Positions 1 to 16,075 of a DNA stretch of 64,000 bases are shown here, piece by piece. Within the stretch, counting starts at the first letter, position 1, and each line of letters begins with the position of its first letter. The DNA is from Methylophaga sp. (lineage in GTDB: Bacteria; Pseudomonadota; Gammaproteobacteria; Nitrosococcales; Methylophagaceae). The DNA lies in assembly GCA_002706095.1 (NCBI GenBank), contig PAJP01000022.1:62001-126000 (forward strand), written 5' to 3'. The notes under the pieces are model-generated. The model was not told the DNA's origin. It searched no databases and saw only the letters and a program-made list of their open reading frames with translations. Position numbers and translations under genes: made by a program.

Positions 1-1505
1 TGACTGCTTGTATCAAAGAAATAATCTAGGAATGATGCAAGTTTATTCCCAGGCACAATATAGTTGATCAGCAAATGTATCTTGGCATTTTTCTTGATTC
101 CAAGAAGGATTGTGGTCTTCTCATCACCCAGAAGAGGAAAGAGAATTTCATCGTCGACAGCACCATCAAGCAAGGTAGAGTGCTTCTCAACCAGTTTTGG
201 TTGAAGCGGGTTGTATGTGAGATTACCTTCAAAATCAATATAGCTACTGACCTCGAGTATTTGATCAGGAAACCGCTTTAAAAAAGGACTTAATGTAGAG
301 TAGGAAACAATGAGCTTGTCGAACCTGCCGGCTTGAATATGAATCCACTGGTCATCTCTAAAATGAACTGTCTTATCTTTAATTTGCTGGTGAAATGTCT
401 GCAATGCTTGCTGTGAGGTAATCGAGATAACTTCAACGTCAGGTAATGATGGTGAAGTTTGCTTCTCTAATGGGTAAAGCTTCTCCATTGTGTCAAAGAG
501 CATGCCCACACGATGATCCAGGGTATGTTCAGCCAAACTCCGCTGATAAGCCGCATCGGCTATCTGTTCTCGTTCGTTATTATTTTCGAGGAAATATTCT
601 ACTTTGGAGAATAAAGCTTCATCATTATCATAGAAAACGATTTCTTTATCCGGCTCATAAAGCTCTGCCAGTTCCGAATTAGTATTGGTAATTTGGAAAG
701 CTCCACAGCCAGGCACTTCGAAGTGACGAAGTTTTGTTTGAACAGCATCAGTTCCATCCGATGACCAAGCAGGATTAAAAACAATCTTTGTTGAATTAAG
801 AATCTTAACCATCTCTACCTGCGATGGCACACCACCAGCATACTCGGACAGCGTTGGATGTTTATCCCATCCATAGCCGAATATTTTAAAAAGCCAACCA
901 CGGGACTTTGCAAGCGTTGCTAATTCTTCAAGAATTTTTTCTCTTTGCTGTCCATCCTCTAAATAGGATTTGTCATCAAGCTCATTCACTTTATGTTTAC
1001 CGAAAAAGACGATATCAATCGATTTCGGAACATCATCCAAGCGATAACATTGACGTTGATTGTAGCCCCATGGCAGGTATATCACCCTATCTGCCCAGCC
1101 ACTTTGCTTCCTTCTCTCTACACCACGAGATGAGTGAGAAGCAATTACATCATAATGATGATCAAACTGTGTGTTTCTTTGGTACCAAACCTCTGGCTCA
1201 TCATCTGGAAGAAAGGTAACGATCTTGATACCTGCTGAACGTATCTTTTCAAAAAACGTATCTGGGTAATCAGCAAAAATCCAATCATGATAGAAGAATA
1301 TGTAGTCAATATGCTCACGACGAACCAAGTCGTATATATAGGCACAATGAAAACTCTCAGGCTGAGTCGAGTAACGTTCTTTGTTTACCAACAACGGTGC
1401 AGCATTGACACAAATAACTTGCTCACCCAATACTGCCTGAAGTGCATCAAACCAATTTTCTCGTATATATGGAACCCATAATGCTCCAATTGCCAATACC
1501 CTCAT
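1..1505 (-). CDS. CgeB-type glycosyltransferase, C-terminal end cut by window edge
   Basis: An open frame of about 501 codons runs from an ATG at 1505 to base 1 with no stop, so the 3' end lies outside the window. The first ~335 residues look like the CgeB/YkvP glycosyltransferase family (GT4-like, PF13524). They have an N-terminal Rossmann-like start (MRVLAIGALWVPYIRENW), an acidic FLPDDEPEVWY segment, and the family's nucleotide-sugar half-motif around RHFEVPGCGAFQITN. A YFLENNNEREQIADAAYQRS helix and a HTLDHRVGMLF tail follow. The last ~165 visible residues are an extension I do not recognise. The ATG overlaps the TGA of the radical SAM gene upstream (ATGA), so the two are probably translationally coupled. 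Inference: it transfers the sugar made by this island to flagellin or another acceptor. Donor and acceptor cannot be read from the sequence. Confidence 0.75.
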   Translation of the reverse strand, partial: MRVLAIGALWVPYIRENWFDALQAVLGEQVICVNAAPLLVNKERYSTQPESFHCAYIYDLVRREHIDYIFFYHDWIFADYPDTFFEKIRSAGIKIVTFLPDDEPEVWYQRNTQFDHHYDVIASHSSRGVERRKQSGWADRVIYLPWGYNQRQCYRLDDVPKSIDIVFFGKHKVNELDDKSYLEDGQQREKILEELATLAKSRGWLFKIFGYGWDKHPTLSEYAGGVPSQVEMVKILNSTKIVFNPAWSSDGTDAVQTKLRHFEVPGCGAFQITNTNSELAELYEPDKEIVFYDNDEALFSKVEYFLENNNEREQIADAAYQRSLAEHTLDHRVGMLFDTMEKLYPLEKQTSPSLPDVEVISITSQQALQTFHQQIKDKTVHFRDDQWIHIQAGRFDKLIVSYSTLSPFLKRFPDQILEVSSYIDFEGNLTYNPLQPKLVEKHSTLLDGAVDDEILFPLLGDEKTTILLGIKKNAKIHLLINYIVPGNKLASFLDYFFDTSS

Positions 1506-3409
1506 GAGTTATACGAAAAAATCTGACCACGCCGGCTCACACCAGCGGTAATGTTGCCTGCCAAGTATGAAGCGACACTCTCTACCTCTTGATACCCATC
1601 TCGATTCTCAAATGTGTATGGAATAAAAGCACCTTTAAAATTGATATCATTTTTCAGCACGTCCAACTCAGGTTTAAGCATGTCGCTAAGAAAATGACTA
1701 TTGCCGGAGAAAGCATGAATCTTATCTTCTGATAGCACGGGAGAGAATTCATCTTTAAATCGAACAGGTGTTAAGACATGTACATCCAGACCTAACTTCG
1801 CAAGAGAGGTAATAATCCAACGAGTAAGATGAACACGTGAGGATTGCATAACAACGACGCTATCGCCCTTGTTTAGATGACTTAGTGTTTGTTTCAGTTT
1901 TATGGTGACTTCTTCTGCCGGAAACGCTCTCTCTACCTGGGCTTGGTCGAAACGACGATATGCCTCTTTGACATAAGCCTCAAGCTCTTCTGCAGTGAAG
2001 TTTTCTGTTCTCGACACTGCTACCGTTGATCCATTGTAATCATCCCAGTCTTTGGAAACGATCCAACCTTTTTCATCGTATAAACGATACATTTCTGTCC
2101 CAGGGAATGGCGTAGCAATAGAGAATTGAACAGTATCAGCCGGCAAGCCACAGGCCATATCGATTGTATTCTCAATGGTTTCAGCTGTATCACTAGGTAA
2201 ACCAAATGTGAACGTGAGATGTACGCGAATACCCAGCTCTGATGTCAGCTTGATCATCTCAATATTTTTTTCGGCATTCATCCGTTTATCAATTTCATCT
2301 AGGATTCCCTGCTCGGCTGACTCTACACCATATTTAATACTGAATAATCCAGCATCTTTTAGTGCTTCCAATGTCTGCCTATCCATCAAATCGGCTCTAC
2401 CCATCGTTGACCATGGAATGCGATTACCAATACCAGAAGACTTCATCTTAGCGGCTAACTCAAGTACAAACTTTTTATTGATATTTACCGTGTCGTCATC
2501 GATATAAATACTCTTGTAAGGCACTTTTTCTAGGTTAGCTTTAATTTCCTCGATGACATCATCCGTCGTACGCATGCGATAACGAGGACTACGGAATAAC
2601 ATCTGCGGCCACGCGCAAAAAATACAGCCGTAAGGACATCCACGTGTAGCCATTAACTGCAATTGAGGACGCTCAAGTCCACAGACACCATCAAAATAGT
2701 TCAGGTTTGGTAAACCCTCACGTTCAGCCCAAGGCATGGTAGAAAGGTCTGGCAATCTGCCATACTCATTCTTTTTCACCTGGCTTACTTCGATAGTCTC
2801 AGACACGTCTTGTTCTGATTCTTTTTCAGCTTCATTTCGATATATTTTTCCATTATCCCTATAGATCAACGCAGGAATATCTTCCAATGAGCGGCCATCT
2901 CTGAGCGCGCATAAAAGCTGGATTACGGTTGTTTCGTATTCACCATAGATGGTGAAATCAATAACCGGGTTTTGCTCTAAAAACGTTTCATCTTCAAACT
3001 CGGTATGAAGTCCTGTAAACGCTACTTTCACATCAGGAAGCAGTGCCTTAATTTGACTCACGATCTTAAGATCGGTTTTTACAGTCGGGGTTGAGCTCTC
3101 GATAACAATGAAATCAGGTCGGCTTTCTTTGATGAACTGATAGAAACTATCAAATGTTTCACCCATTGAAAGTGAATCACGAATAACCGTCTCAAACCCT
3201 TCTCGCTTGGCATAGGCTGCGCCAGTAGCTAGCCAGACAGGGAAGGGTAAATAGCCTCCGATATGTTCCTGAATGATGCCATCTACCACTGTGTGCGAAT
3301 GCACTTGAAAAGTATGTGGCCAGCGGGAACCAGCTCTTACGCCTCGCCAGCCAGGCGTCTCTGGTGTGGCTTCTTTGTACCATGGAGGATTCGAAAATAA
3401 TACTTTCAT
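1502..3409 (-). CDS. B12-binding-domain radical SAM protein
   Basis: About 635 residues. The N-terminal ~170 residues form a cobalamin-binding-like Rossmann region (FIVIESSTPTVKTD, then TGLHTEFEDETFL, which matches the GGxH...PEE.L pattern of this class). The radical SAM cluster motif CxxxCxxC is GCPYGCIFCAW, with cysteines near residues 258, 262 and 265. A TIM-barrel region with YIDDDTVNIN and FTFGLPSDT follows. The final ~130 residues form an extra alpha/beta segment (VVVMQSSRVHLTRW, then AGVSRRGQIFSY) that I cannot assign. Family members catalyse methylations, ring rearrangements or other radical chemistry; the substrate here is unknown. I chose the second ATG (3409) because an AAAGG lies 8 bases before it but only 2 bases before the ATG at 3415. 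The gene overlaps the glycosyltransferase start by 4 bases and follows a 70-base gap. Confidence 0.85.
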   Translation of the reverse strand: MKVLFSNPPWYKEATPETPGWRGVRAGSRWPHTFQVHSHTVVDGIIQEHIGGYLPFPVWLATGAAYAKREGFETVIRDSLSMGETFDSFYQFIKESRPDFIVIESSTPTVKTDLKIVSQIKALLPDVKVAFTGLHTEFEDETFLEQNPVIDFTIYGEYETTVIQLLCALRDGRSLEDIPALIYRDNGKIYRNEAEKESEQDVSETIEVSQVKKNEYGRLPDLSTMPWAEREGLPNLNYFDGVCGLERPQLQLMATRGCPYGCIFCAWPQMLFRSPRYRMRTTDDVIEEIKANLEKVPYKSIYIDDDTVNINKKFVLELAAKMKSSGIGNRIPWSTMGRADLMDRQTLEALKDAGLFSIKYGVESAEQGILDEIDKRMNAEKNIEMIKLTSELGIRVHLTFTFGLPSDTAETIENTIDMACGLPADTVQFSIATPFPGTEMYRLYDEKGWIVSKDWDDYNGSTVAVSRTENFTAEELEAYVKEAYRRFDQAQVERAFPAEEVTIKLKQTLSHLNKGDSVVVMQSSRVHLTRWIITSLAKLGLDVHVLTPVRFKDEFSPVLSEDKIHAFSGNSHFLSDMLKPELDVLKNDINFKGAFIPYTFENRDGYQEVESVASYLAGNITAGVSRRGQIFSYNS

Positions 3410-3479
3410 AGCCATTGCCTTTCGTAGTGCAGCAAAATACGTGTTTTACTGTTTATTATTATCAGAGTTAATGTTGTTT

Positions 3480-4292
3480 TCATTCCAGCACAGTGATGCC
3501 AGAAGCCCAATATTCCGCCGCCTGATTAAAATGAGGTCGCTTATTAAACGTTAGGTTATAACCATACGCTTCAAAATGATAATTCGCTTTGGGATTATCC
3601 GTCTCCATACCCGCTAACCATAGTAAAGGAGGATAACCATCTTTCCTGAACAATAACTCTGGCAACGAAATAAAAGCTGCTGTTGTGTCATAGGCTCCAG
3701 ACAATAGAAAATTCTCAGGAAATAATTCGATCTGCTGCCTCGCGGCTTCAACAGAAAAGCCTAAAAAGCAAGGAAAATACATCCCTACAACTGCAGATTC
3801 TCTTACCTTGTTAAGTAAATACTGCTGTCGTCCAGATGCAGCGGGTACGAGTTTAGCCACTAAAGACTCTTCAACATGATTAGTAAAGTCAGAGTCGGGA
3901 AAGTTATCTGCATAAAGCTGGGCTATGGCTGGCAAAAAACGCTGTTCCAGTTCTTGCCCAATATCATTCTGATGAATCTGAGGAAGAATAAAAGGAATCG
4001 CTGGCCCTTGTAATATGTTTTCCATGCTCGAATGCTTAGCAATAGAGGCTTTGATAGCTTTTACTTTATGTTCAAAGGATGAAAATGCCAACACCTTTTC
4101 AATATCAAAAACGCTCTGATGTCGAGAATATATCTGCTGTAAATCAATATCCGGTGTATCCAAGATAAAGTAGCGTCTTGTTTTTTGATGGGCTTGACCT
4201 TGTATGCTGCCAGGAATACATCGACCATGAATATCGAAGCATTCTTCGGTATCTGAAAGCTGTGGTGAAAATTGAGAATTCAATATGGTCAT
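3480..4292 (-). CDS. Unrecognised 270-residue protein between two radical SAM genes
   Basis: I do not recognise this protein. It has no signal peptide or membrane helix and looks soluble and cytosolic. Three cysteines are visible: CFDIHGRC near the N-terminus and MYFPCFLGF around residue 178. The C-terminal third is rich in aromatic residues (YPPLLWLAGME, YHFEAYGYNLTF, AAEYWASG). The segment around residues 85-180 could be mostly helical. It lies in the same orientation as a radical SAM gene on each side, with gaps of about 70 and 97 bases, so it may be a partner, chaperone or substrate-binding subunit, or a separate sugar-processing enzyme. No function is claimed. Open frame and context make it a real gene; a homology search is needed for more. 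Confidence 0.6.
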   Translation of the reverse strand: MTILNSQFSPQLSDTEECFDIHGRCIPGSIQGQAHQKTRRYFILDTPDIDLQQIYSRHQSVFDIEKVLAFSSFEHKVKAIKASIAKHSSMENILQGPAIPFILPQIHQNDIGQELEQRFLPAIAQLYADNFPDSDFTNHVEESLVAKLVPAASGRQQYLLNKVRESAVVGMYFPCFLGFSVEAARQQIELFPENFLLSGAYDTTAAFISLPELLFRKDGYPPLLWLAGMETDNPKANYHFEAYGYNLTFNKRPHFNQAAEYWASGITVLE

Positions 4293-4389
4293 TACTTATT
4301 CCGATTAGACTAACGTCTTTATTTGCTACTAATTCTAAGCAAACTTCATACCTATGGTCGTAAGAGTCTGATTAAACAGACAAGATAAA

Positions 4390-5472
4390 TTAATCAAACA
4401 ATGAGTCTTTATCTGAAAAGCCTTCCCCCCAAGGAAGTGGCAAAAATTTGGCGTTGGCTGTTTTTTCTGTGTGAATACGAATAAATTTTTCATCCTCACC
4501 AATAAGACAATCAGGGCGATGAGGGCCAAGCCATGGGTTTCGCATACCTCGATCCAAAATATCTTTTAATGGCGTCTCTTTTAAATTACCTATGGAAAAA
4601 TCAATGTAAGGGCAAGGTGTAATCTCACCCGTTGATGTAACCGTTATTATGCCTTTTACCGTGATGCAGCCTTTATATGAGCCATATGAGGGTGTCATGT
4701 GGGTGAACACAGAATATTTTTTCTCGAGCTCTCTTATACGATCAGCATCTTCTTTAGTGATGACAAACTCAGGATGTTCTGTACACGACCCCGTTGGCTT
4801 CGCATACGACACATATAAACCCACACCTTTTTCTGTACAGAACTCACACAAATCAATAAATTCTTGTGTGTGAGCACGACCTTTAATGAGTACGGTTGAT
4901 AATAGCAAGTTCAGGCCGGCATTCAATGAGGCATCAATTGCCCGCATCACTCGCTTGTATGAGCCTTTTTTATTTCTGAATGAATCGTGCTCTTCTTCTA
5001 TAAAACTATCGAGTGAGAGTTGAATTTTCTCTACACCAATAGACTTGAGGTGTTCGGCTTTTGCATCATCTAAAAACCAGCCATTTGTATCTAAGATGAC
5101 ATAATGTTTATCCGGATCTATCGCTTCAACCACTTCATCCAGGTCACGCATCACTAAAGGTTCGCCACCAGTGATAACGAAACGAGCTAAACCTAATTCA
5201 TCGGCTTGTTTTGATAAATTTCTAATAAACGCTAAATCAATTTTTTCACGCTCATCCTGGACATGAAGCACTTTTTCTAAATGTCTATCCATATAGTACT
5301 CAGCAGAGCAATGTGAGCATTGGAAATTACACAAGTAACTTTTTTCCAGCCTGATGATGGGACTTATTTCTCCCCGTTCTTCCATATTTTTGATATTCGC
5401 CAGTTTGTCTGCAATGTAGGGCTTTCTTGCTCGAAGATCACTCCTTTTCGCTTGTTCAGCTGGTGTAAGCAT
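4390..5472 (-). CDS. Radical SAM protein, MoaA/PqqE/SPASM-like
   Basis: 360 residues. The cluster motif CxxxCxxC is LCNFQCSHC (cysteines 48, 52, 55). FVITGGEPLVMRDLDEV is the GGEP SAM-binding element, and ILDTNGWFLDD and IQLSLDSFIEEEHDSFR are typical of the MoaA/NifB/PqqE branch. The C-terminal part keeps three cysteines (KGCITV, TPCPYI, PDCLIG) and a FSIGNLKETPLKDIL segment of the kind seen before SPASM domains. This looks like a short SPASM or twitch region that could hold an auxiliary cluster. It starts at ATG 5472 with a GAGAAG ribosome site. It is the first gene after an AT-rich 84-base gap and is followed 97 bases on by the unrecognised gene. Its role in this glycan island is unknown. 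Peptide or sugar modification are both possible. Confidence 0.82.
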   Translation of the reverse strand: MLTPAEQAKRSDLRARKPYIADKLANIKNMEERGEISPIIRLEKSYLCNFQCSHCSAEYYMDRHLEKVLHVQDEREKIDLAFIRNLSKQADELGLARFVITGGEPLVMRDLDEVVEAIDPDKHYVILDTNGWFLDDAKAEHLKSIGVEKIQLSLDSFIEEEHDSFRNKKGSYKRVMRAIDASLNAGLNLLLSTVLIKGRAHTQEFIDLCEFCTEKGVGLYVSYAKPTGSCTEHPEFVITKEDADRIRELEKKYSVFTHMTPSYGSYKGCITVKGIITVTSTGEITPCPYIDFSIGNLKETPLKDILDRGMRNPWLGPHRPDCLIGEDEKFIRIHTEKTANAKFLPLPWGEGFSDKDSLFD

Positions 5473-5556: not shown

Positions 5557-6441
5557 TCAATAATGAAATTGACGAGGGTCAATCTCATCTTGGTGCGCTT
5601 GATACCACTGCAAAAGTGAGCTCAATGAAGTTTGTATTGGTGTTAATTTTAGATCCGGTATTTCTTTTAATAGAAGACTATTGTCACCACTATACTCATG
5701 ACGAATCTGTTGATTATGGATAACAACATCAATTTCTTCTGATGAATACAATTTAGCTACGCTAGCTGCTAGCTCAGTGTATTCGTAAGCCATTCCAGAA
5801 CATACATTGTATACAGAGTGTTGTGGCTGATAGTCAACAAACCACTGAACAACTTTGATTAAGTCTTTGATGTAAAGAAAATCTACTTTTGCATTTTGCT
5901 GCACGGTAATAGATTGTTTTTTTAATGCGTGACAACAAATATTTGAAAGAAACCGATAACGCCAGTCGTCTAACTCACCAAACACACCAAATAACCGCAA
6001 GTTGATAATATTGTTTTTTGATTCAGCTATTTTGGTCATTAAGTACTTTGAATAACCATATTGGTCCTGAGGCACATGTTTATCAAAAAACGTCTCACGC
6101 ATTTTTGGTATCCAGTGAGGACGACTAAACTCGGCACCAGAACCGAAGTAAAGCAGCTTGCCATAATCATGCTCACAGCGAACAAGATTTGTGAACATCC
6201 TCATGTTGTATTCGAGAACCATCGAAGGGGCCTTTTTTGAACCCTTAGGTGCGGCATCATAGGTAGCAGTGTGGATAATGACATCAAAATGATGATGTCG
6301 AAGAAATTCTGAAACATGATTCACGTTGAGTAAGTCCAGCTCACTCCTAGAGCAGACTGTTAAATCGTATTTTTCTACAAATTCACGAGCAAGACTTCTA
6401 GCAATAAAACCATTGCCGCCAGTAATTAAAACTTTCTTCAA
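5557..6441 (-). CDS. NAD-dependent epimerase/dehydratase (extended SDR)
   Basis: 294 residues. The N-terminal nucleotide-binding loop is GGNGFIA and the catalytic YxxxK is YGYSKYLMTK, near residue 133; INLRLFGVFGE follows, as in extended SDR sugar enzymes. The predicted reaction is epimerisation, dehydration or reduction of a nucleotide-linked keto sugar. The start is a TTG at 6441: the reading MKKVLITGG begins exactly where the Rossmann strand should begin, and no usable ATG lies nearby. It is 23 bases after the HAD gene and is the last gene of the sugar operon before an 84-base gap. It could be the final ketoreductase of the CDP-sugar route (YerF-like in role), but that is inference from position only. 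Confidence 0.8.
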   Translation of the reverse strand: MKKVLITGGNGFIARSLAREFVEKYDLTVCSRSELDLLNVNHVSEFLRHHHFDVIIHTATYDAAPKGSKKAPSMVLEYNMRMFTNLVRCEHDYGKLLYFGSGAEFSRPHWIPKMRETFFDKHVPQDQYGYSKYLMTKIAESKNNIINLRLFGVFGELDDWRYRFLSNICCHALKKQSITVQQNAKVDFLYIKDLIKVVQWFVDYQPQHSVYNVCSGMAYEYTELAASVAKLYSSEEIDVVIHNQQIRHEYSGDNSLLLKEIPDLKLTPIQTSLSSLLQWYQAHQDEIDPRQFHY

Positions 6442-6464: not shown

Positions 6465-7118
6465 TCAGTCCACTTCAAGTAAAGAATTAAGTGCATTTAC
6501 TTGCGACAGACAAACCCCGTCATAATCTGACCAATCACCATATCCCCATGCCACGGCAACGAAGTCAACCTGATTTGACAAGGCTGCGATCTGATCATCT
6601 GTACGATCACCGATATAAAGAGCTTGGGAAGGATCTACCTCGAACTCGTGCAACATATTTGATAACAAATTGGTTTTACTCTGCTGCCCTGTGGGTAACA
6701 TATCAACACATTGTATCGATTCAAACAGACTCTTCCAGTTAAGTTCGTTTATCACACTAAAGGTCGGCTCTGTTCGCTTATTAGTGGCTATAAATAGTTG
6801 TTTATCACTGGCTTTCAATTGATTTAAAACATCCTCAATACCAGAATAAGCAAGCGTCTCTTTTTCAACTATAGCGTCATACCTTTCCTTAAAGCACTGA
6901 GTCATTTCACTCAATGTTTTTTCAGAAACATCACCCACAAGCATTTTCATTGTCTCAGGAAGAGGTGGTCCGATAATGCCTTGTTCAATCTTGACCTTGG
7001 GCTTCATATCAAAAGTCTGCATCACAAATTCATAGCTTGATAGGATACAGGCAGCCGAATCTACCAACGTGCCATCAAAATCAAAGAAAATATATTTTTT
7101 ATTCTTCAGTACAGTCAC
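6465..7118 (-). CDS. HAD-superfamily phosphatase, phosphoglycolate-phosphatase type
   Basis: 217 residues with the full HAD set: motif I FFDFDGTLVDS with the nucleophile Asp, motif II ATNKR with Thr, and motif IV YIGDRTDDQIAA. A helical cap lies between motif I and motif II (residues ~20-85). The start is GTG at 7118 with GGAG seven bases upstream, lying across the stop of the methyltransferase gene. In nonulosonate pathways a HAD phosphatase often removes the phosphate from the NeuB product. A similar role downstream of the NeuB-like gene here would be consistent, but a general phosphosugar or phosphoglycolate phosphatase cannot be excluded. Confidence 0.82.
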   Translation of the reverse strand: MTVLKNKKYIFFDFDGTLVDSAACILSSYEFVMQTFDMKPKVKIEQGIIGPPLPETMKMLVGDVSEKTLSEMTQCFKERYDAIVEKETLAYSGIEDVLNQLKASDKQLFIATNKRTEPTFSVINELNWKSLFESIQCVDMLPTGQQSKTNLLSNMLHEFEVDPSQALYIGDRTDDQIAALSNQVDFVAVAWGYGDWSDYDGVCLSQVNALNSLLEVD

Positions 7119-7122
7119 TGCA

Positions 7123-8259
7123 TTACTCCAGAATTTTCAAGTTGGCACCATCAACCACGGCAATACCAGGATTATTCAATCTCATCGTTTTCAGAATCCT
7201 ATAAATTTCATCCGAAAAACTACCGGCCATGATAATGATGGCAGCGATGGGCTCCTGCTCTAATTTTGCTGGGGCGGTGATAGGTATGTGTGTGGCCGGT
7301 GTTAGTTTATTTTGTTTGAATTTAGCTGAATCCACTACAAAACGAATCTTTCCACTGAGGTTGGCCAACGCCATAATGGCCAATGCTTGGTGACCGGCAC
7401 CCCATATAGCAACAGAATTGGAAGGAAAAATGTTGATGTAGTGATCGAGTTGTCGTTTTAGATCATGCTGAAACAATTCAAACCGCTTTAGGTTTTTGGT
7501 GGCACGCTTTCTAACCACAGCTGAAAGATTGTAATCATGCCATACCGCCTGACAAGACAACACCTCAAAACCAGCTAAATTGAGCGTAGTTATCAACGTT
7601 TCTTTAGAAAAGTAAGACAGATGGTCAGGTATAAACTCTGAAAAAAGCTCCTTCTCCATTATCATTTCAAAGTTTGGTACCTCAACGAGGCCAATCGCAT
7701 CACTTTTGAGGTTGTCAGCAATAGCTTGTAAGGAATGAACAGGAGATGGCAAATGTTCTAAAAAGTTGAGCATGACAAAAGCATCAAAAGGGCAAGCAGC
7801 AACTCTGGTAAGCCGGTCTTCGAGAAATAGCTTTTCAACATTTAGTCCTAGAGATTGGCAATGCTCCGAGGCTAATTCGCCATATTCAACACCGTAGGCA
7901 TCAACACCTGTTTGTGCCAAAATCTCTAAATACTCACCTCTGCCACAGCCAACTTCTAACACTTTTTTCTGATGCAGTTGGTACTTTTCAACCCAGTCTG
8001 TAAATTGATCATGGCGAAAAGCGGCCATCTCAGCCGAAACGGATGTCGCTCGTATGACTTCCCGATAATAACTAACAGGCTCAGCGCTAAGCTGGATCAA
8101 GCCGCAGGCATTACACTCATATACATGCAAATCGACACCAAAATCATTGCCAGCATTGAATTCATCAGGAAAATACTGGGCAGATTTTGGCATACCACAA
8201 TAACTCAACGACGGTGTGGCACCAAGTGCCGCATCACAAACTCGACAGTATAAACTCAT
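7123..8259 (-). CDS. Sugar C-methyltransferase, zinc-domain class I SAM-dependent
   Basis: About 378 residues in three parts, as in the NDP-hexose C-methyltransferases (NovU/TylCIII/TcaB9 type). These are an N-terminal zinc-finger-like segment (YCRVC and YECNACG), a class I SAM-binding core (VLEVGCGRGEYLEIL, near residue 85) and a C-terminal domain with a second Rossmann-like motif (VAIWGAGHQALAIM). Family members add a methyl group to C-3 or C-5 of a 4-keto-6-deoxy sugar nucleotide. I chose the ATG at 8259, where the protein begins MSLYCRVC. The longer frame to 8307 starts at a TTG inside the end of the ThDP gene and adds residues unlike the family. It is followed 4 bases later by the HAD gene, so they are co-transcribed. 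The 4-keto CDP-sugar made by rfbFG is a plausible substrate. Confidence 0.82.
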   Translation of the reverse strand: MSLYCRVCDAALGATPSLSYCGMPKSAQYFPDEFNAGNDFGVDLHVYECNACGLIQLSAEPVSYYREVIRATSVSAEMAAFRHDQFTDWVEKYQLHQKKVLEVGCGRGEYLEILAQTGVDAYGVEYGELASEHCQSLGLNVEKLFLEDRLTRVAACPFDAFVMLNFLEHLPSPVHSLQAIADNLKSDAIGLVEVPNFEMIMEKELFSEFIPDHLSYFSKETLITTLNLAGFEVLSCQAVWHDYNLSAVVRKRATKNLKRFELFQHDLKRQLDHYINIFPSNSVAIWGAGHQALAIMALANLSGKIRFVVDSAKFKQNKLTPATHIPITAPAKLEQEPIAAIIIMAGSFSDEIYRILKTMRLNNPGIAVVDGANLKILE

Positions 8260-8290
8260 GGTATTTTTGATTCTTGAATAGAATACAACA

Positions 8291-10111
8291 TCAATAGCGG
8301 CGCTCAACCAAGATTGAATTAGGAGAAACGGGAACTGACATTTCTTTTTGAAGCTGCTCTGTGGATAACAAAGGTGACATATCCTCCAATGGCATCGATA
8401 TCATCGAACCATTCGCTTGAGGAATAGCTGACACTTTTGGCCATAACGCTTCGTCTTTAATGATAGTAACATCACAAAGAATTGGGCCTGGATGATTGAG
8501 AACATATTGGATTTTTTCATCCAACTCACTGGCGTCATTTATACGAACAGCATCAAGGCCAATCGCTTCAGACAGTTTGACTAAGTCCGGTATCAATAAA
8601 CCGGCTTCTTGCCCTGTTGCCACATAGCGTTCATCAAAATAATTTCGTTGTGTATTTCTAATTGAGGCATAACCATTATTGTTCATAATGAATAGGCGTA
8701 TAGGTAAATTGAGGGATTTTAAGGTGCTTAATTCTTGAAGATTAAGCTGCAAACTTCCGTCACCTTCTACCGAGACAACGGGCTTTCTGCCTGAGGCCAG
8801 ACAGCCACCAATCGCCGCGGGCAAACCATAGCCCATAGAACCTAAACCCGAGGTGAGAAAAACACGCTGTCCGGTTTTGTTCACAAAGGTGGAATAAAAC
8901 ACTTCCACAGCTAAGCCCGAACTACCGGTAATGATCAGTTCATTCTCAGCTGTATAAGCTGATAGTCGATCAATAAAATGATAATGGCTGATTTCACCTT
9001 GCTCAGGAAAGGTTTGACCATCACAGCGAGGATAACGCTGTTTCCAGTCTGTAATTTTATGTATCCAGTCAGCATAGTCAGCAGGTGCGTCATTCACCTC
9101 AGTCATAAGCTGTTCAATAAAGGTTTTGGCATTCGCCTGAATTAAACGGGCTTTGGGTAGCTGATGTTTTTTCAGTTCAGAGGCGTCAATATCGACAATC
9201 ACTTTATCGGCATATTGAGCAAAGTTTTGCGGGTTATGGGCGGTGACCACATTATCCAGACGGGCGCCAATGCTGATCAATAAATCACAATTCTGGGCGG
9301 CAAAGTTTGCCGGTCTGAGTGCCACGGAACCTGGTCGACCAGCACATAATGAATGTTCGTAAGGAATTAGATCCAGAGAATTCCATGTGGTTAATACCGG
9401 AATACCGGTTTTTTCATAAAGTTGTTTGAATGCGTCAGCGGCACCTGATAGACGGATACCATGACCTGCCAGAATAATAGGACGCTCTGCCTGCTGAATG
9501 AGTTGGATAACTTCATCCAGCTCAAGTGCACAGTCTGACTCAGTGTCTGTATTCGACTCATCCCGGGCTAGCTCTTCCGGCTCAATCAAACTGGCTTGTA
9601 CATCCAAAGGCACATCCAGCCAGACAGGGCCTTTTCGCCCTGTCATCGCTTCATGTAAAGCCTTATCAAGATAAAGACCAATATTCTCTGGCTCATCAAC
9701 GGTGATGGCATATTTGGTAATGGGTTTAACCATCGACACGATATCGACTTCCTGCGGGCCCATTTGCCGTACACCGCTATCAGCTTTCATATCGGCCCGT
9801 TTCACCTGACCGGAAATAATCAGCAATGGCACAGACTCAATCCAGGCACCCGCTACGGCAGTTAAAGCATTGGTTGCACCTGGCCCTGTGGTGACCAGCG
9901 CCACACCGAGTGTTTCATTCACGCGAGAGTAGGCTTCAGCAGCAATCGCAGCCGCTTGTTCGTGATGAGTCGGTATGAAAGTGATATCAGGATTCTGTCC
10001 CAAGGCATCCACAAGATGCATGGCGCCACCACCAGGAAGTAAGAAAACCTCTTTAACACCTAATTCAGCCACTCGGGCAAAGATATAGTCAGCAACGCGT
10101 TGTTCGCTCAT
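8291..10111 (-). CDS. ThDP-dependent enzyme, acetolactate-synthase-like (possible YerE-type)
   Basis: About 606 residues with the three-domain layout of acetohydroxyacid synthase large subunits. The activating Glu is in THHEQAAAIAAEAYSR. The central domain holds PIILAGHGIR, and the C-terminal ThDP motif runs from VEGDGSLQLN to FIMNNNGYAS (GDG then NN about 25 residues later). No separate small subunit and no ilv genes are nearby, and the setting is a CDP-sugar operon. The best known precedent is YerE, an acetolactate-synthase homologue that transfers a two-carbon unit from pyruvate to CDP-4-keto-3,6-dideoxyglucose in yersiniose synthesis. That assignment is inference. The start is ATG 10111, overlapping the TGA of the NeuB-like gene (ATGA); the GTG at 10117 is less likely. 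Confidence 0.85.
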   Translation of the reverse strand: MSEQRVADYIFARVAELGVKEVFLLPGGGAMHLVDALGQNPDITFIPTHHEQAAAIAAEAYSRVNETLGVALVTTGPGATNALTAVAGAWIESVPLLIISGQVKRADMKADSGVRQMGPQEVDIVSMVKPITKYAITVDEPENIGLYLDKALHEAMTGRKGPVWLDVPLDVQASLIEPEELARDESNTDTESDCALELDEVIQLIQQAERPIILAGHGIRLSGAADAFKQLYEKTGIPVLTTWNSLDLIPYEHSLCAGRPGSVALRPANFAAQNCDLLISIGARLDNVVTAHNPQNFAQYADKVIVDIDASELKKHQLPKARLIQANAKTFIEQLMTEVNDAPADYADWIHKITDWKQRYPRCDGQTFPEQGEISHYHFIDRLSAYTAENELIITGSSGLAVEVFYSTFVNKTGQRVFLTSGLGSMGYGLPAAIGGCLASGRKPVVSVEGDGSLQLNLQELSTLKSLNLPIRLFIMNNNGYASIRNTQRNYFDERYVATGQEAGLLIPDLVKLSEAIGLDAVRINDASELDEKIQYVLNHPGPILCDVTIIKDEALWPKVSAIPQANGSMISMPLEDMSPLLSTEQLQKEMSVPVSPNSILVERRY

Positions 10112-11628
10112 GCCCACTCCGTAGTTAGCCAGTCAGCACGAAAGATCAGGTTCGTTTTGCGACGACTGTTCTGGTTGATGCTTTTATCGTCGTAATATGA
10201 GTCATCAGTGAAATGTGTGGTGGATAACTCTTCAAATATCGCCCCAGTTTCACTGCTAAAAGCATGTTTAACACCGCGCTCAACGGTGACCATTTCACCG
10301 GCTTTGATGGTTTTTAGCTCATCACCTAGTTGTAAGTGCATTTCTCCCGCCAGCACATTAAAGGTTTCTTCTTTTTTATGATGAGCGTGCACGGGATGAT
10401 TTTGTCCTGGCAGTAACACCAGAATCTTTTTACAGTATTCACGGTTAACCACATCAATAATGGTCGCACCTGTTTCTTCGAACTTCTCGATGCCATAGTG
10501 ATGCGATAATTGGCAGTTCACGCCATCCGCAATAGCAATACCGGCTTCACGTAATAAAGCACACACTTTAGATAATGAAGCTGAAACCATGTCACGGGTA
10601 TCGGTGATTTCTAATTGCTCGAGTAATAAAGGTTCATTAGCCTTTACCGCCGCTTTTAACTCAAACTGTTTGTATTTGGATAAGTCATTAGCTAATAGTT
10701 GACCGGGTTGACTTGGAATCGCCAAGTAAAAATCTTCTGTTTGCAATGCTTTGCCTGCAGCGAGATCTTGTTTAGCAAACACCGCTCGGCGTAATGAATT
10801 CAGTGTGGTTAATTCTGTCTCTGTCACCGCCACACGCTCGCCCTCAAGACCAAGCATGGCATAAGCTTCTTGCGCTGAGAGTAACCATTGTCTGACTTGT
10901 TCAGGGTTCGCCGAGTAAGCATTGAGCTCACCTACCCCAACATGCTTTTCAAACAGCTGCGCCCCCATGGCGACGGCCATTTTTACTGCTTCCGTCTCAT
11001 TAGGATTTTCATGGGTTGAATAGCCCACCGTCACCTCAGGAAACCGTTGTTTTAATAGAGCAATTTGACCTAATTGTAAATTTTGTCGTGGCGTTGGATA
11101 TTCACCAACACAATGCATCACCGCTAACTGTTTGTGGCGATGTAAGAAAAACTGAACGACATTGTCAATCTCTTCCATCGTGGCACCGGCGGTAGACATC
11201 ACCAGCGGCAAAGAGGATTGAGCGATACGTTCTAGTAATGGCCAATCAGTAAGTGAACAGGAGGCAATTTTTAAGATGTCAAAACCATGTTGTTCAATCC
11301 AGTCAACAGAGGCTTCATCAAACGGCGTACACATGGAAATAAAGCCTGCTTCATCAATGGCTTTTTTTAACTCCAGCAGTTGGGCTTCGTCTAACTCTGT
11401 ATCACGAAACCGTTTAACGTATTTAATATCTTGTCTATCGCGATAATCAGGATGAATAAAGGTTTTCAGGTTACGGTACTGCAATTTAAAGGCAAACTGG
11501 AAAGGAAAGTCGTCACATACTTGTTTCATCTGCTGAATAACCTGCTTGCCATGAGCAATATCACCTTGGTGATTATTGGCCATTTCCAGCACGAATAACT
11601 TTTGATACATCGGTGTTTTGTCAGTCAT
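10108..11628 (-). CDS. NeuB-family synthase fused to SAF and cupin domains
   Basis: About 506 residues in three parts. Residues ~10-270 are a NeuB/PseI/LegI-type TIM barrel (EMANNHQGD, MCTPFDEASVDWIEQHG, MSTAGATMEEIDN, MHCVGEYPTP, VGYSTHENP, LFEKHVGVGE). Residues ~280-345 are an SAF/antifreeze-like domain (LRRAVFAKQDLAAGKAL...AIPSQPGQ). Residues ~390-480 are a cupin (LPGQNHPVHAHHKKEETFNV, with a His/Glu metal pattern, then GVKHAFSS). NeuB enzymes condense phosphoenolpyruvate with a hexose or hexosamine derivative to give a 2-keto nonulosonate-like acid. Typical members are ~350 residues, so the ~150-residue cupin tail is an addition, resembling sugar-isomerase-type cupins such as D-lyxose isomerase. 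It starts at ATG 11628, immediately after the rfbH-like stop, and overlaps the ThDP gene by 4 bases. Confidence 0.85.
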   Translation of the reverse strand: MTDKTPMYQKLFVLEMANNHQGDIAHGKQVIQQMKQVCDDFPFQFAFKLQYRNLKTFIHPDYRDRQDIKYVKRFRDTELDEAQLLELKKAIDEAGFISMCTPFDEASVDWIEQHGFDILKIASCSLTDWPLLERIAQSSLPLVMSTAGATMEEIDNVVQFFLHRHKQLAVMHCVGEYPTPRQNLQLGQIALLKQRFPEVTVGYSTHENPNETEAVKMAVAMGAQLFEKHVGVGELNAYSANPEQVRQWLLSAQEAYAMLGLEGERVAVTETELTTLNSLRRAVFAKQDLAAGKALQTEDFYLAIPSQPGQLLANDLSKYKQFELKAAVKANEPLLLEQLEITDTRDMVSASLSKVCALLREAGIAIADGVNCQLSHHYGIEKFEETGATIIDVVNREYCKKILVLLPGQNHPVHAHHKKEETFNVLAGEMHLQLGDELKTIKAGEMVTVERGVKHAFSSETGAIFEELSTTHFTDDSYYDDKSINQNSRRKTNLIFRADWLTTEWA

Positions 11629-11631
11629 CAC

Positions 11632-13284
11632 TCACACTTTGAAATAAGATTGGATAGTGTCGATCATATAATCAATCATCTCATCAGATAGCCCCGGAAA
11701 AACGCCGATCCACAACGAATCATTCATGACCTGATCGGTGACGGTTAATTCGCCAACTTTACGATAGCTTTGCTGTTCAAAATACGGCTGTTTGATAAGA
11801 TTACCGCCAAAAACCAGCCGGTTGGCTATCTTATGTTGTTCAAGATACTGAATAAATTCAGCTCGATTACCTTGTTTTAAGGTAATAGCAAAACCAAACC
11901 AGGACGGTTCAGCATTATTTTCTGCTTCCGGCAGTAACAAATAATCTTGTAGAGAAGTTAAGCCAGCATATAAACGTTGAAAGTTAGCTTTACGCTTTTC
12001 AATAAAGCCCGTGACTTTATCCAATTGAGACAAGCCCACAGCGGCCTGCATATCAGAAATTTTCAGGTTATAGCCAAGATGAGAATAGGTGTATTTATGA
12101 TCATAGCCACAAGGCAATTGCCCTAATTGATAACTAAAGCGTTTATTGCAGGTATTATCTTTGCCTGGCTCACAAAAACAGTCTCTGCCCCAATCACGAA
12201 ATGACTCCAGAATCAATTTTAGTTGACCATTGTTGGTATAAACCGCGCCACCTTCTCCCATCGTAATATGATGAGCCGGATAAAAGCTTAAGGTTGCAAT
12301 ATCACCAAAAGTGCCTACATGACGGGGCTTATCTAACTCAATTACTTGTCCACGATAATCTGTAAGCTCAACGGAGGGTGAATAAGTGGTGCCTAATGCA
12401 TCACAACAATCTTCGATTAACCATAAATTATGTTGACGGGCAAAACGCACAACAGCATCAATATTGAACGTATTCCCTAATGTATGCGCCATCATGATGG
12501 CTCGGGTTTTATCAGATAACGCCGCCTCAAGCTGACTGACGTCGATATTGTAAGAAGGTAAGGTAATATCAACAAAAACCGGGACTAAACCGTTTTGTAA
12601 GATGGGATTCACCGTAGTCGGGAACCCAGCCGCGACAGTGATGACTTCATCGCCTTTTTGTAATGCTTTATCACCTAACTTAGGTGACGTCAGTGCAGTT
12701 AATGCCAACAAGTTCGCTGAAGAACCTGAGTTTACCGTGAGAACATGTTTTACATCGATAAATTCTGCCAGTGCTTTTTCAAACTGGGCATTAAACCGTC
12801 CTGTTGTTAGCCACCCATCCAGTGAGGCATCCACCATATGCTGGATATCATTGTTATCCAAAACTTTTCCAGACACTGCAACAGCATTCTGCCCAGGCAG
12901 GAAAGCCTTTGATTGAAATTTATGTTGGCTGTAGCGTTTCACTTGACGTTGAACTAAGGCACGTAATAACGCTTCTACTGTTGAAGCCGAAAGTTGACCT
13001 TGTCGACTGGCGATATTCATTGGACCAGTAAAAATAGGCTGCCGTAAATCCAGGTATTCTGCTGAACGGCTTGCTGTCGCTTCCGATAACAAAAACCAGT
13101 TATCCACTGAAGTTGAAGGATTGTCTGTTAAAGCCATTACTTCATAACACTCTATGACGGCTTCTTCCTGAGAAATCACGACACATAAAGTTGGCGAGGT
13201 GGCAGGTTTATTGACAACACACAGTTCACCGCAAGTAAAAGTAGCAGCGTGATTGGTCATATCATGAGAATACATTGGGTTCAT
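11632..13284 (-). CDS. rfbH: RfbH/DdhC-like CDP-4-keto-6-deoxyglucose 3-dehydrase with N-terminal extension
   Basis: 550 residues. From about residue 110 on it matches RfbH/DdhC/AscC (E1), the PMP-dependent, iron-sulfur 3-dehydrase that starts C-3 deoxygenation of CDP-4-keto-6-deoxyglucose. Landmarks are [29 protein letters not shown] and [13 protein letters not shown]. The last has His where aminotransferases have the PLP lysine, the hallmark of this E1. The cluster cysteines are in [17 protein letters not shown]. RfbH proteins are usually ~435 residues. The extra ~105 N-terminal residues ([19 protein letters not shown] through [14 protein letters not shown]) have no counterpart I recognise. 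E1 needs an NADH-dependent flavin/iron-sulfur reductase partner (DdhD/AscD), and none is in this window. It is followed directly by the NeuB-like gene and preceded 14 bases upstream by the CDP-glucose dehydratase. Confidence 0.9.
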
Positions 13285-13298: not shown

Positions 13299-14378
13299 TT
13301 ATCGAGCTCGCTTACTCGCCTGAACAAACTGCTGAATTTGTTGCAGGCTTATCTCGCGCATGGGCTTTCCAGAATAAAAAGCATCATACCAGTCAAATGT
13401 GAGAGACAGTGCATCATCAATATGCCAAACAGGTTGCCAGTCTAATTGTTGTCGGGCTTTACTACAGTCGAGCATCAGTATTGATGCTTCATGATGCTCG
13501 TTATGCTGAGGTGCAAACCAATCAAGAGACGGCCAACGCTGCTGAGCAAATTCCACAATATAATCTACAGGCTTCGTGTCTTCCATAGCAGGACCAAAAT
13601 TCCATGCATCAGCTACTTCCGCACCGCGCTCAACCATGTGTTGAGCCAGTAATAAATAACCTGATAAAGGCTCCAATACATGCTGCCAAGGTCTAATAGC
13701 TCGCGGATGACGAATCTCAAGCGAATGACCTGTCTGATTGGCCTTTATTAAATCTGGGATTAACCGGTATTCAGACCAATCACCGCCACCAATCACATTA
13801 CCGGCACGCGCACTAGCGACGGCAGTTTTATTACCCATAAAAAAGGACTGTCGATAGGCACTGGTGACAAGCTCGGCACAGCCTTTACTATTGCTGTATG
13901 GGTCATGCCCACCCAACCGATCGTTTTCGCGGTATGGCCAAGACCACTCATGATTTTCGTAACATTTATCTGAGGTCACCACGACCACAGCTTGAACACT
14001 GGGACAATGTCTGACGGCTTCTAGAAGATTGACTGTCCCCATCACATTGGTTTGATAGGTTTCAACAGGAACAAGGTAACTGGGTTTAACTAATGACTGT
14101 GCAGCGAGATGAAACACCACATCGGGCTGTGTCTGATTCACAAGTTCAGATAGCGTTGATAAATCAGAAATATCTGCCATCACAGAGTTGATAATTGTCT
14201 CTAACTCGAGAGTTTCATATATTGAAGGTGTGGTATTTGGCGCAAGCGCATAACCCGTTACTTTGGCGCCAAGCTGAGTTAACCACAAGCTCAACCAGCT
14301 ACCTTTAAAACCGGTATGTCCGGTAATCAGAACGGATTTGTTATGCCAAAAAGTCTTATCAATCACCACACTTTCCAT
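13299..14378 (-). CDS. rfbG: CDP-glucose 4,6-dehydratase
   Basis: About 359 residues, an extended [23 protein letters not shown] is the RfbG/DdhB signature at the nucleotide-binding loop, followed by [15 protein letters not shown] and [13 protein letters not shown], which carries the YxxxK catalytic pair. [20 protein letters not shown] is also typical of the family. It converts CDP-glucose to CDP-4-keto-6-deoxyglucose. I prefer the ATG at 14378 (AGG six bases upstream; protein begins [14 protein letters not shown], as family members do) over the one at 14399. Either way it overlaps the end of the cytidylyltransferase gene, so the two are coupled. Confidence 0.93.
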
Positions 14379-15133
14379 GGTGCCTGATTTGACTGCCATA
14401 AGTGCTCAAGGTGCTGTTTGTCTCTAAGCGTATCCATGGGTTGCCAAAACCCCTCATGTCGGAATACTCGTAACTGTTTTTCAGCTACTAATTTCTCCAA
14501 TGGTCGGCCTTCCCAACTCGTCTTATCGTCGCTGATGTAATCAATCACTTTGGGTGACAACACAAAAAAGCCACCACTGACCATACTGTTATCACCCTTG
14601 GGTTTTTCCTGAAAGTTAATCACGCAATCATCTTTAATATCCAAGGCGCCAAATTTTGCCTGTGGATAAGCAGCCGTGACCGTGGCAAGATTTCCATGTT
14701 GTTGATGAAATTCGATACTGCCAGCTATATCAATATTACCGACACCATCACCGTAGGTTAAACAGAAAGCGTCTTCATCTTTGACATAATCGGCGATCCG
14801 ACGAATACGCCCGCCCGTCATACTATTGTCACCTGTGTCCACTAAGGTTACTTTCCAAGGCTCCGCATGCGCTTCATGTACATGCATTTTATTATTTTGC
14901 ATATCAAACGTGACGTCTGACATATGCAAAAAATAATTCGCAAAATACTCCTTGATGAGATAACCCTTATATCCACAGCAGATAATAAAATCATTCACGC
15001 CATGATAGGAATAGATTTTCATAATATGCCAAAGAATAGGCTTTCCACCTATTTCTATCATTGGTTTCGGCTTATTGATGGACTCTTCACTGATACGGGT
15101 GCCTAAACCACCAGCCAGGATTACTGCTTTCAT
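14363..15133 (-). CDS. rfbF: Glucose-1-phosphate cytidylyltransferase
   Basis: 256 residues, the usual length for RfbF/DdhA. The N-terminal nucleotidyltransferase motif is [19 protein letters not shown], followed by [17 protein letters not shown], the Asp-containing [11 protein letters not shown] and [13 protein letters not shown]. It makes CDP-glucose from CTP and glucose-1-phosphate, the entry step for the CDP-sugar genes that follow. It starts 36 bases after the flgL stop, in the same direction. The start has no visible Shine-Dalgarno sequence (upstream bases are TTATAAAAAT). It is probably co-transcribed with flgHIJKL; no better promoter is visible in the short gap. Confidence 0.94.
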
Positions 15134-15169
15134 ATTTTTATAACTGACGAGTGTAAAAATGTCAGTGTT

Positions 15170-16075
15170 TCATAAAAAGTTAAAGAGGGACAGTCCTTGC
15201 ACTTTGACATAGGCTTGTTGAGCCGCCTGCAAACCCGTTGTTTGCGAGTTTAAGCGTGAAATGGCTTCGGCATAATCCAAGTCTTTAAGTTTAGTTAGGC
15301 TCGTTTCCAGACTAGCTAAGCTGTCTTCATTAATACTACGTTGCTGGTCTATTGAATTGATTCGGGCACCTACAGCGGTTCTTGCTGTCGTTAATGAATC
15401 AATGGCTGTCGACATATTATCAAGAAACTCACCATTATTAGGGGCTGTGCCTATAGTATTGGCTTTAAGCGCGGTAGAAAAATCATCAATGGTTTGGAAA
15501 ACCGCCTGAGTAGTTGTGTCGGCATTGGTGATAACAAATAGCTCATCGCCGGGAAAGGTTGCTTCAACAGAATAATCGCTGCCTACACGCATACTGCGTT
15601 GCCCACCATCGCCGCCATAAGCAAATGTGGTAGTGTCAAACGCTTGTGTAAAAGATTGATAACCAGAGAATAAAAACTCGCCGTTCGCATCTGTGGTGTT
15701 CGCCAGGCTCACGAGAGACTTATTCAACTCATCAATTTCTTCTGCGATACCTGCTCGGGCATTGGCATCGTTGCTGTCATTAAGTGCTTGCACAGCCAGC
15801 TCACGGATCCGTTGAACAATATTTGTTGCACTGGTTAAGGCATTTTCAGCGGCATTAAGTTTGTTATTAGCCACATCGGCATTCGCCTGATACTGTTCGT
15901 TGATGCTGACTTCACGCTGATAGTTCAATGACTTTACTGCTGCCACCGGGTCATCTGACGGTCTTAGAATTCGTTGCCCCGTTGAGACTTGTAACTGGGT
16001 ATCCGCCAACTGCTTTTGTTGGGCCAGCATCGTATCAACACTTTGCTGTTGAATATAGGATGTAGAAATTCTCAT
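15170..16075 (-). CDS. flgL: Flagellar hook-filament junction protein FlgL (HAP3)
   Basis: 301 residues. It has the flagellin-like N-terminal coiled coil (MRISTSYIQQQSVDTMLAQQ, RILRPSDDPVAA) and the C-terminal coiled coil (LNSQTTGLQAAQQAYVKVQG) that form the D0/D1 core, with a short variable middle. With FlgK it joins the hook to the flagellin filament outside the cell and is exported by the flagellar type III system. It is the last flagellar gene of the flgHIJKL set and lies 9 bases after flgK. The island that follows in the same direction is probably for filament glycosylation. Confidence 0.94.
   Translation of the reverse strand: MRISTSYIQQQSVDTMLAQQKQLADTQLQVSTGQRILRPSDDPVAAVKSLNYQREVSINEQYQANADVANNKLNAAENALTSATNIVQRIRELAVQALNDSNDANARAGIAEEIDELNKSLVSLANTTDANGEFLFSGYQSFTQAFDTTTFAYGGDGGQRSMRVGSDYSVEATFPGDELFVITNADTTTQAVFQTIDDFSTALKANTIGTAPNNGEFLDNMSTAIDSLTTARTAVGARINSIDQQRSINEDSLASLETSLTKLKDLDYAEAISRLNSQTTGLQAAQQAYVKVQGLSLFNFL

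Follow-up and report, generated by a model that had tools for sequence, protein, structure and literature searches.

In glycosylation islands of the Pseudomonas aeruginosa type, the stretch from flgL to the flagellin genes is occupied by sugar and glycosyltransferase genes; described flgL-fliC islands make other sugars and are not known to contain radical SAM enzymes. A Rickettsia genome paper names both "radical SAM" and "flagellin glycosylation." A second group of related systems is built around ThDP enzymes: YerE attaches a carbon unit to CDP-3,6-dideoxy-4-keto-glucose, ErwE accepts longer hydroxy keto acids as substrates, and MMAR_2332, of the same enzyme group, has been linked to caryophyllose (review PMC12247030), a sugar with a 4-C branch whose second carbon is deoxy (PMC5706390). 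The structure 8rph is that of JanthE, whose physiological substrates are stated in PMC12188165 as not yet identified. The terms "NeuB," "neuramin," "sialic," "flagell," and "radical" are all absent from PMC12247030.

Here we describe a gene block in a 64,000-nucleotide stretch of Methylophaga DNA (the window) that is part of a probable flagellin-glycosylation island, whose product would be passed to flagellin, and that contains a conserved radical SAM gene pair (Table 1).

Table 1. Features of the gene block, in coordinates of the window
Feature	Position	Strand	Evidence and remarks
CgeB-like glycosyltransferase	3..1505	-	N-terminal 501 of 652 aa; Pfam Glyco_trans_1_2 2.2e-32; accessory
B12-rSAM, B12-binding-domain radical SAM protein, 637 aa	1502..3415	-	Pfam; accessory
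P270, unnamed 270-aa family, second half of the pair	3480..4292	-	AF2 model, adjacency
SPASM-rSAM, radical SAM/SPASM protein, 360 aa, first half of the pair	4390..5472	-	Pfam
SDR epimerase/reductase	5557..6441	-	Pfam Epimerase 2e-28
HAD phosphatase	6465..7118	-	Pfam HAD_2 5e-29
Sugar C-methyltransferase-like protein	7123..8307	-	Pfam Methyltransf_23 and Methyltransf_14
YerE/JanthE-like ThDP enzyme	8291..10117	-	Best PDB match 8rph; GDG motif at residue 452
NeuB-type synthase with C-terminal lyxose-isomerase-like cupin (NeuB-cupin)	10108..11631	-	Pfam NeuB 6.4e-44, Cupin_2, Lyx_isomer
RfbH, CDP-4-keto-6-deoxyglucose 3-dehydratase	11632..13284	-	NCBIfam RfbH 718.8 bits, cut-off 423
CDP-glucose 4,6-dehydratase-like SDR (exact name presumed)	13299..14399	-	Pfam GDP_Man_Dehyd 7.4e-40
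Nucleotidyltransferase, presumed glucose-1-phosphate cytidylyltransferase (name from operon)	14363..15133	-	Pfam NTP_transferase 1.5e-19
flgL, upstream border of the island	15170..16075	-	Pfam Flagellin_N/C; 97% identical to the L092 copy

An earlier note on this DNA had described two radical SAM genes flanking a 270-residue protein, with a CgeB gene translationally coupled to the first; all four open reading frames were recovered on the minus strand, Pfam assigns the flanking genes to the B12-binding and SPASM types (CxxxCxxC is present in both), and the 4 bases shared by the CgeB and B12-rSAM frames fit the proposed coupling. The upstream CDP-sugar operon and flgL do lie in the same direction, as that note had it, but the operon also holds the NeuB-cupin and YerE/JanthE-like genes and is more than a CDP-sugar operon. 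Beyond flgL, upstream of the sugar genes and in the same direction, lies flgK, and at the other end the island runs on for about 14 kb beyond the window start, reaching two flagellin genes followed by fliD. On contig C11 of the window's genome, flgL is located at 77656, the pair at 66393, and the flagellins at 47208 and 46223, so that flgL and the flagellins enclose sugar and transferase genes, with the pair 11.3 kb from flgL and 19 to 20 kb from the flagellins.

SPASM-rSAM has both domains of its class (Radical_SAM, 3.8e-21; SPASM, 1.2e-5) together with conserved cysteines, those at C48, C52, C55, C209, C269, C287, and C322 being invariant in a 32-sequence alignment. Among the 25 best of 69 NCBIfam families it remains under the cut-off of every named equivalog, including MoaA, PqqE, AhbD, and NirJ, and the best-ranked of these scores 101.3 against a cut-off of 500. 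A contig search with the SPASM pair alignment as query gave 45 loci, of which 44 were kept as orthologous (72 to 84% identity) and one, L054, was dropped at 28% identity; a contig search with P270 as query returned no matches. P270 directly follows SPASM-rSAM in all 44 loci, and the two form a conserved unit whose pairing by chance is excluded. They are fused in one frame in 8 of these loci, L046 among them, and in the 36 unfused ones their aligned parts are separated by 15 to 147 bases, a gap that is the one flank covered as regards the short precursor peptide of a RiPP system. A ninth apparent fusion, L042, was rejected because P270 is there in another frame and the stretch contains N runs. 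The pair appears to be an undescribed two-part radical enzyme that is made as one fused protein in some other bacteria.

The inability of the earlier note to assign P270 was borne out by a profile check, which placed it in no Pfam or NCBIfam family (best Pfam match DUF4899, E = 0.099, below threshold). Among 39 members, comprising the window, L007, and 37 of the 44 loci (those missing had unclear starts, apart from three that are fused), four Pfam families matched one member each with a best E of 0.0015, which is not credible, and the same holds for the best match of the P270 profile to the PDB (E = 0.014). Foldseek recovered no match to the P270 model at E<=0.001 among PDB and viral models, and the profile gave no credible hit in 398 phylum genomes besides two already known, with at most six candidates scored per genome. 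The AF2 model has a pLDDT of 93.5, and the conserved positions in the alignment are R, H, E, Y, N, and W, a pattern as might be expected in an enzyme domain. A model of the fused protein reached a pTM of 0.86, a figure that does not establish the interface, and its nearest folds include the peptide maturases SkfB and SuiB together with the small-molecule enzymes MoaA, BlsE, and viperin.

The pair is associated with a sugar pathway in which a NeuB-cupin synthase and a YerE/JanthE-like ThDP enzyme accompany the CDP-3,6-dideoxyhexose genes. Of 34 well-flanked loci, 31 match one or more of six genes of the sugar cassette at E<=1e-20 (the E value being the sole filter), and 28 of the 34 have the C-methyltransferase-like gene; the SDR gene immediately upstream of the pair recurs in L011, L039, and L052, and of the 12 loci with an HAD homologue at E<=1e-20, 9 have it beginning no more than 70 bases past the P270 match. 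One genome, G151, has both the pair and the sugar genes on separate contigs. A mobA-like gene adjoins the pair there by eye, and a molybdenum cofactor link was considered and discarded, the ten frames around it encoding signaling proteins or falling in no family. The ThDP enzyme aligns with JanthE (8rph) over residues 6 to 593 (E = 1.7e-120; the runner-up is an acetolactate synthase at 7.1e-78), and this full-length kinship to a characterized enzyme makes it a putative YerE-like carboligase. For the CDP-4-keto-3,6-dideoxyglucose genes, RfbH exceeds its NCBIfam cut-off and the SDR and nucleotidyltransferase are identified by Pfam only. A separate E3 reductase is to be expected beside RfbH, and none was seen in a general scan of the genes, which counts against the sugar reading. 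The NeuB-cupin protein, which has the NeuB domain, best matches 3g8r in the PDB (2.2e-112), and we call it NeuB-type only, given its scores of 151.8 of 399.65 bits for NnaB and 127.5 of 340.25 bits for PseI.

The link to the NeuB-type gene could be counted in 44 genomes, namely, those of 42 of the 44 loci (L017 and L046 were left out) plus the window's genome and G151. The gene is present in 43 of them versus 10 of the 396 phylum genomes sampled that lack P270 (Fisher test, 9e-49, kinship ignored); the background of 12 in 398 was obtained with at most three candidates scored per genome and may be low. Matches are nearly full length in 40 of the 43 genomes and partial in G569, G544, and G540, and the single pair genome without a match, the MAG G535, has two ThDP matches. 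Of the 37 genomes with a flagellin-family match (PF00669, Flagellin_N), 26 have one no more than 25 kb from the pair, where 1.26 would be expected (binomial, kinship ignored), although some of these matches are flgL-type because PF00669 also matches FlgL and the two were counted together. The other 11 have flagellin on a different contig from the pair, which counts against the association. The order flgL, pair, flagellins is found again in Methylophaga aminisulfidivorans (G575), an environmental methylotroph whose island has the same core, and in G567 if its 304-aa match is flgL. The orthologues are therefore found by sugar and flagellar genes, the opposite of the outcome that the earlier note had named as refuting its idea.

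That note had also taken the radical SAM genes, P270, and the CgeB gene for a single system, and one could accordingly imagine B12-rSAM and SPASM-rSAM acting in succession on the same substrate. In the window the four genes share a strand with short gaps, and the set is found again in L014, from a Sulfuriferula MAG whose adjoining CgeB orthologue is 55% identical; we nevertheless regard this as unlikely. B12-rSAM (Radical_SAM, 4.6e-21; B12-binding, 4.9e-13) is rare, its own genome always counted: 2 of 54 genomes at E<=1e-50, the other being G550 (71%), 1 of 143 relatives, and 1 of 369 class genomes, where at most three candidates per genome were scored and the count may be low. The genome of M. 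aminisulfidivorans contains the pair but no B12-rSAM orthologue, and its island holds two further radical SAM genes. A single locus of the 34 well-flanked ones repeats the foursome, a frequency at which it could be a chance arrangement, and this together with the rarity of B12-rSAM leads us to reject a four-gene unit; SPASM-rSAM and P270 alone are conserved. B12-rSAM with CgeB, which adjoins it in both genomes having it (the full 652-aa frame is at L006:9547-11505), is an accessory.

On balance, we lean toward a flagellin-glycosylation island that makes an unusual higher-carbon sugar tailored by SPASM-rSAM and P270. The CDP-sugar enzymes and RfbH would convert CDP-glucose to CDP-4-keto-3,6-dideoxyglucose, and NeuB-cupin would condense PEP with an aldose, perhaps supplied by its cupin half, to a 3-deoxy-2-keto acid. 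The YerE/JanthE-like enzyme would then decarboxylate this acid and join the remainder to C4 of the keto sugar; the deoxy second branch carbon of caryophyllose is what a decarboxylated 3-deoxy-2-keto acid would leave. SPASM-rSAM and P270 may act as one two-part radical enzyme that, for instance, epimerizes, deoxygenates, or ring-closes either the branched sugar or the keto acid from which it is made, and B12-rSAM with CgeB may provide a strain-specific extra modification and transfer. The pair likely tailors a long-chain 4-C-branched CDP-sugar by radical chemistry. Caryose and bradyrhizose are carbocycle-containing sugars, and a bolder version, which we consider improbable, is that the pair is a new class with a new-fold partner domain that rebuilds the skeleton of a long-chain branched sugar, e.g., by closing a carbocycle, in a higher-carbon flagellar sugar made by NeuB-type condensation and YerE-type grafting.

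A less probable alternative is that the pair works earlier in the pathway, its substrate being the keto acid or the aldose used by NeuB, with the YerE-like step coming later. The NeuB-type gene is the partner whose co-occurrence is best measured, SPASM-rSAM adjoins it in L037 and in the SAR11 locus L041, and the MAG that is home to L037, G541, has NeuB next to SPASM-rSAM and yields no match to the ThDP enzyme at E<=1e-100. Against this, ThDP genes are about equally frequent, being found in 29 of the 34 well-flanked loci (partial matches included) and, at E<=1e-100, in 11 of 14 genomes tested, all but G540, G541, and G547. Because G540 has a weaker ThDP match (36%) adjoining NeuB and G547 has the start of a ThDP gene followed by masked sequence, the order of steps cannot be read from gene content; most of the ThDP gene seems missing in L041 as well, but that stretch is masked and supports no inference of absence.

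The earlier note had left open whether the radical chemistry modifies a sugar or the flagellin peptide, and it is the sugar-linked step within a flgL-fliC island that has held up. SPASM-rSAM could instead modify a protein, with P270 as substrate or presenting flagellin, as in peptide-maturation systems; flagellin genes are often nearby and RiPP maturases are among the top folds of the fused model, and yet we find this distinctly unlikely. P270 is confidently folded with conserved polar residues, and its fusion to the enzyme would be unusual for a substrate. Seven of the 44 pair genomes, several of them draft MAGs or single-cell genomes, are without a Flagellin_N match, and all seven have a NeuB-type gene, which favors a sugar as substrate over the flagellin peptide.

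For the tailored-sugar reading, the joint occurrence of NeuB-type, YerE-like, and RfbH genes suggests a rule for the bacterial synthesis of long-chain branched sugars, whereby a keto acid is made by one enzyme and then grafted by the next onto a CDP-keto-sugar. With the pair comes a radical SAM family whose constant partner is without a match among the families and solved folds searched, and the natural fusions offer a one-protein version for assays.

Compared with described enzymes, SPASM-rSAM resembles the MoaA/PqqE-type SPASM/twitch group, including BlsE, in its radical SAM core and C-terminal cysteines, with MoaA, PqqE, SkfB, and BlsE as sequence and fold matches, but it lies far under the equivalog cut-offs and has in P270 a constant partner without a fold match. 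B12-rSAM has HpnJ, of the HpnJ/BchE type, as its best NCBIfam match, but at 242.7 of 577.6 bits, and AprD4 as its best PDB match (7e-22, residues 255 to 480 only), but at 84.6 of 500 bits for the AprD4 family. The placement of sugar and glycosyltransferase genes in the present island is like that in the P. aeruginosa-type flgL-fliC islands. With the YerE/ErwE/JanthE pathways to CDP-yersiniose and erwiniose, the present island shares RfbH-type 3-deoxygenation genes and a YerE-like ThDP enzyme, and it differs from them in its NeuB-cupin synthase and its radical SAM/P270 pair.

The four genes described in the earlier note are all present on the minus strand, as confirmed by open reading frame coordinates and Pfam: a SPASM-type radical SAM gene (SPASM-rSAM, 360 aa), a member of an unnamed family (P270, 270 aa), a B12-binding radical SAM gene (B12-rSAM, 637 aa), and a CgeB-like glycosyltransferase gene whose reading frame overlaps that of B12-rSAM by 4 bases. 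The CDP-sugar operon and flgL placed upstream in the same direction were also recovered (RfbH, a dehydratase-like SDR, a nucleotidyltransferase, and flgL). The full upstream series from SPASM-rSAM comprises an SDR, a HAD protein, a C-methyltransferase, a YerE/JanthE-like ThDP enzyme, a NeuB-type synthase with a cupin half (NeuB-cupin), RfbH, the SDR resembling CDP-glucose 4,6-dehydratase, the nucleotidyltransferase, flgL, and flgK; FlgL has 97% identity to the copy in Methylophaga aminisulfidivorans MP (locus L092), which points to a probable Methylophaga host. Past the window start the island goes on with an RmlD-like SDR, a protein without a Pfam match, a DegT aminotransferase, a third radical SAM/SPASM gene, a methyltransferase, a hexapeptide transferase, WbqC, a glycosyltransferase, a sulfotransferase, and a 1503-aa glycosyltransferase, ending in two flagellin genes and fliD.

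Features of the island and related loci (L, extracted locus; G, genome; C, contig)
Feature	Location	Strand	Observation
NeuB-cupin	window 10108-11631	-	39 to 98% identity in 42 other pair genomes; found also without the pair
RfbH	window 11632-13284	-	~100 extra N-terminal residues; family match spans 104-549 only
Third radical SAM/SPASM gene, 326 aa	L006:4762-5742	-	outside window; neighbors DegT aminotransferase and methyltransferase
1503-aa protein	L005:7738-12249	-	GT2 matches, GT1-like ones weak; immediately precedes flagellin genes
M. aminisulfidivorans MP radical SAM genes	L092:11626-13023 and 14227-15576		between sugar cassette and pair
mobA-looking gene (by eye), G151	L007:874-1473		adjoins pair, away from sugar-gene contig
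NeuB-cupin copy	G550:C14:341802-343295		one internal TGA
NeuB-cupin copy	G252:C22:47511-48998		one internal TGA

A contig scan with a two-sequence SPASM-rSAM alignment as query recovered 45 loci from beta-, gamma-, and alphaproteobacteria, a Bacteriovoracia MAG, and an Anaeromyxobacter MAG, and 44 of these carry orthologues (72 to 84% identity). P270 lies directly 3' of SPASM-rSAM in all 44, and in 8 the two share one open frame (L031, L034, L040, L043, L046, L047, L049, and L050); these natural fusions indicate that both proteins probably act as one unit. P270 diverges faster (27 to 47% identity to the window copy), with R24, R39, Y220, Y243, H254, and E260 kept in 39/39 aligned sequences. 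Its AF2 model is confident (pLDDT 93.5, pTM 0.90), and a PDB fold search with it gave no match at an E value of ≤0.001 (best, 0.46). At L041 (Pelagibacteraceae, a SAR11 relative), NeuB-cupin, SPASM-rSAM, P270, and CDP-sugar-like genes adjoin.

Among 34 loci in which the pair is flanked by 9 kb or more of sequence on either side, its neighbors include the ThDP gene (29 loci, partial matches included), NeuB-cupin (28), the C-methyltransferase (28), RfbH (21), the nucleotidyltransferase (18), and the 4,6-dehydratase (17), with at least one of these six in 31 loci; HAD (10) and SDR (4) genes are less frequent. The four-gene system envisaged earlier is not supported by this comparison: SPASM-rSAM and P270 form the conserved unit, but B12-rSAM and CgeB each occur near it in 1/34 loci. 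A NeuB match was found in 43 of 44 pair-bearing genomes (40 nearly full length, 3 partial) versus 10/396 sampled phylum genomes without P270 (Fisher P = 9e-49, kinship ignored). The whole phylum sample, 398 genomes, has NeuB in 12 and P270 in 2, both among those 12 (Fisher P = 8e-4 in this sample alone, kinship ignored). In genome G151 the pair (contig C15) is separated from NeuB and the ThDP gene (both on C20), which argues that the association is more than inherited linkage. Because 10 of the 12 NeuB-cupin genomes in the sample are without P270, the pair seems to be an optional addition to a broader NeuB/ThDP pathway.

NeuB-type enzymes are established to condense PEP with an aldehyde sugar into 3-deoxy-2-keto acids. 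We infer that NeuB-cupin would make such a donor, which the ThDP enzyme would graft onto a keto sugar; the cupin half, which resembles D-lyxose isomerase (Pfam and PDB sequence search), may supply the aldose. The ThDP enzyme is closest to 8rph in a PDB sequence search (E = 1.7e-120), an entry identified as JanthE (PMC12188165). YerE is described as moving activated acetaldehyde onto CDP-3,6-dideoxy-4-keto-glucose; longer hydroxy keto acids are the preferred substrates of ErwE, and those of MMAR_2332, tied to caryophyllose, are similar (PMC12247030). In the structure given for caryophyllose, 3,6-dideoxy-4-C-(1,3,4,5-tetrahydroxyhexyl)-hexopyranose (PMC5706390), the second carbon of the branch is deoxy. 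We would expect this if a 3-deoxy-2-keto acid were decarboxylated and then grafted.

The earlier note had allowed either a sugar or the flagellin peptide as the substrate. Of 37 genomes with a Flagellin_N match, 26 have one no farther than 25 kb from SPASM-rSAM (1.26 expected by chance), a count that may include FlgL, which PF00669 (Flagellin_N) also detects; the remaining 11 have theirs on different contigs. The pair sits between flgL and the flagellins in the window's genome and in M. aminisulfidivorans, and probably in G567. No Flagellin_N match was found in 7/44 pair genomes, among them L041 and the Rhodospirillales/Rhodospirillaceae MAGs L044 and L045; several of the seven are MAGs or single-cell assemblies, in which absence is uncertain, and all seven have a NeuB match. 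Since the pair and NeuB thus occur in genomes without a Flagellin_N match, the evidence favors a sugar product for flagella and other surface glycans over modification of the flagellin peptide. Fold matches to the modeled L046 fusion (pTM 0.86) do not decide the matter: the 50 listed are all radical SAM enzymes, SkfB, MoaA, PqqE, SuiB, BlsE, AbmM, EpeE, and viperin among them, and would be compatible with peptide and sugar substrates alike.

B12-rSAM was found in 2/54 genomes, 1/143 relatives, and 1/369 class genomes, in partly overlapping sets that each count the window's own; at L014, orthologues of B12-rSAM (70% identity) and CgeB (55%) adjoin. In the M. aminisulfidivorans island two further radical SAM genes, of 465 and 449 aa, are present instead; the island's outer part is therefore variable, with radical SAM genes recurrent there. 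Downstream of P270, L016 and L019 encode proteins of 1233 and 1185 aa that match GT2, the latter weakly; these and the 1503-aa protein are candidate flagellin glycosyltransferases.

YerE, NeuB, and "radical SAM" were not found together in any paper among the open-licence matches listed; among these, "radical SAM" and "flagellin glycosylation" co-occur in one Rickettsia paper, and a Bacillus review also surfaced. Known kinds already include such flagellin-glycosylation islands, YerE-like pathways, and SPASM enzymes; the new part is their combination and the P270 partner.
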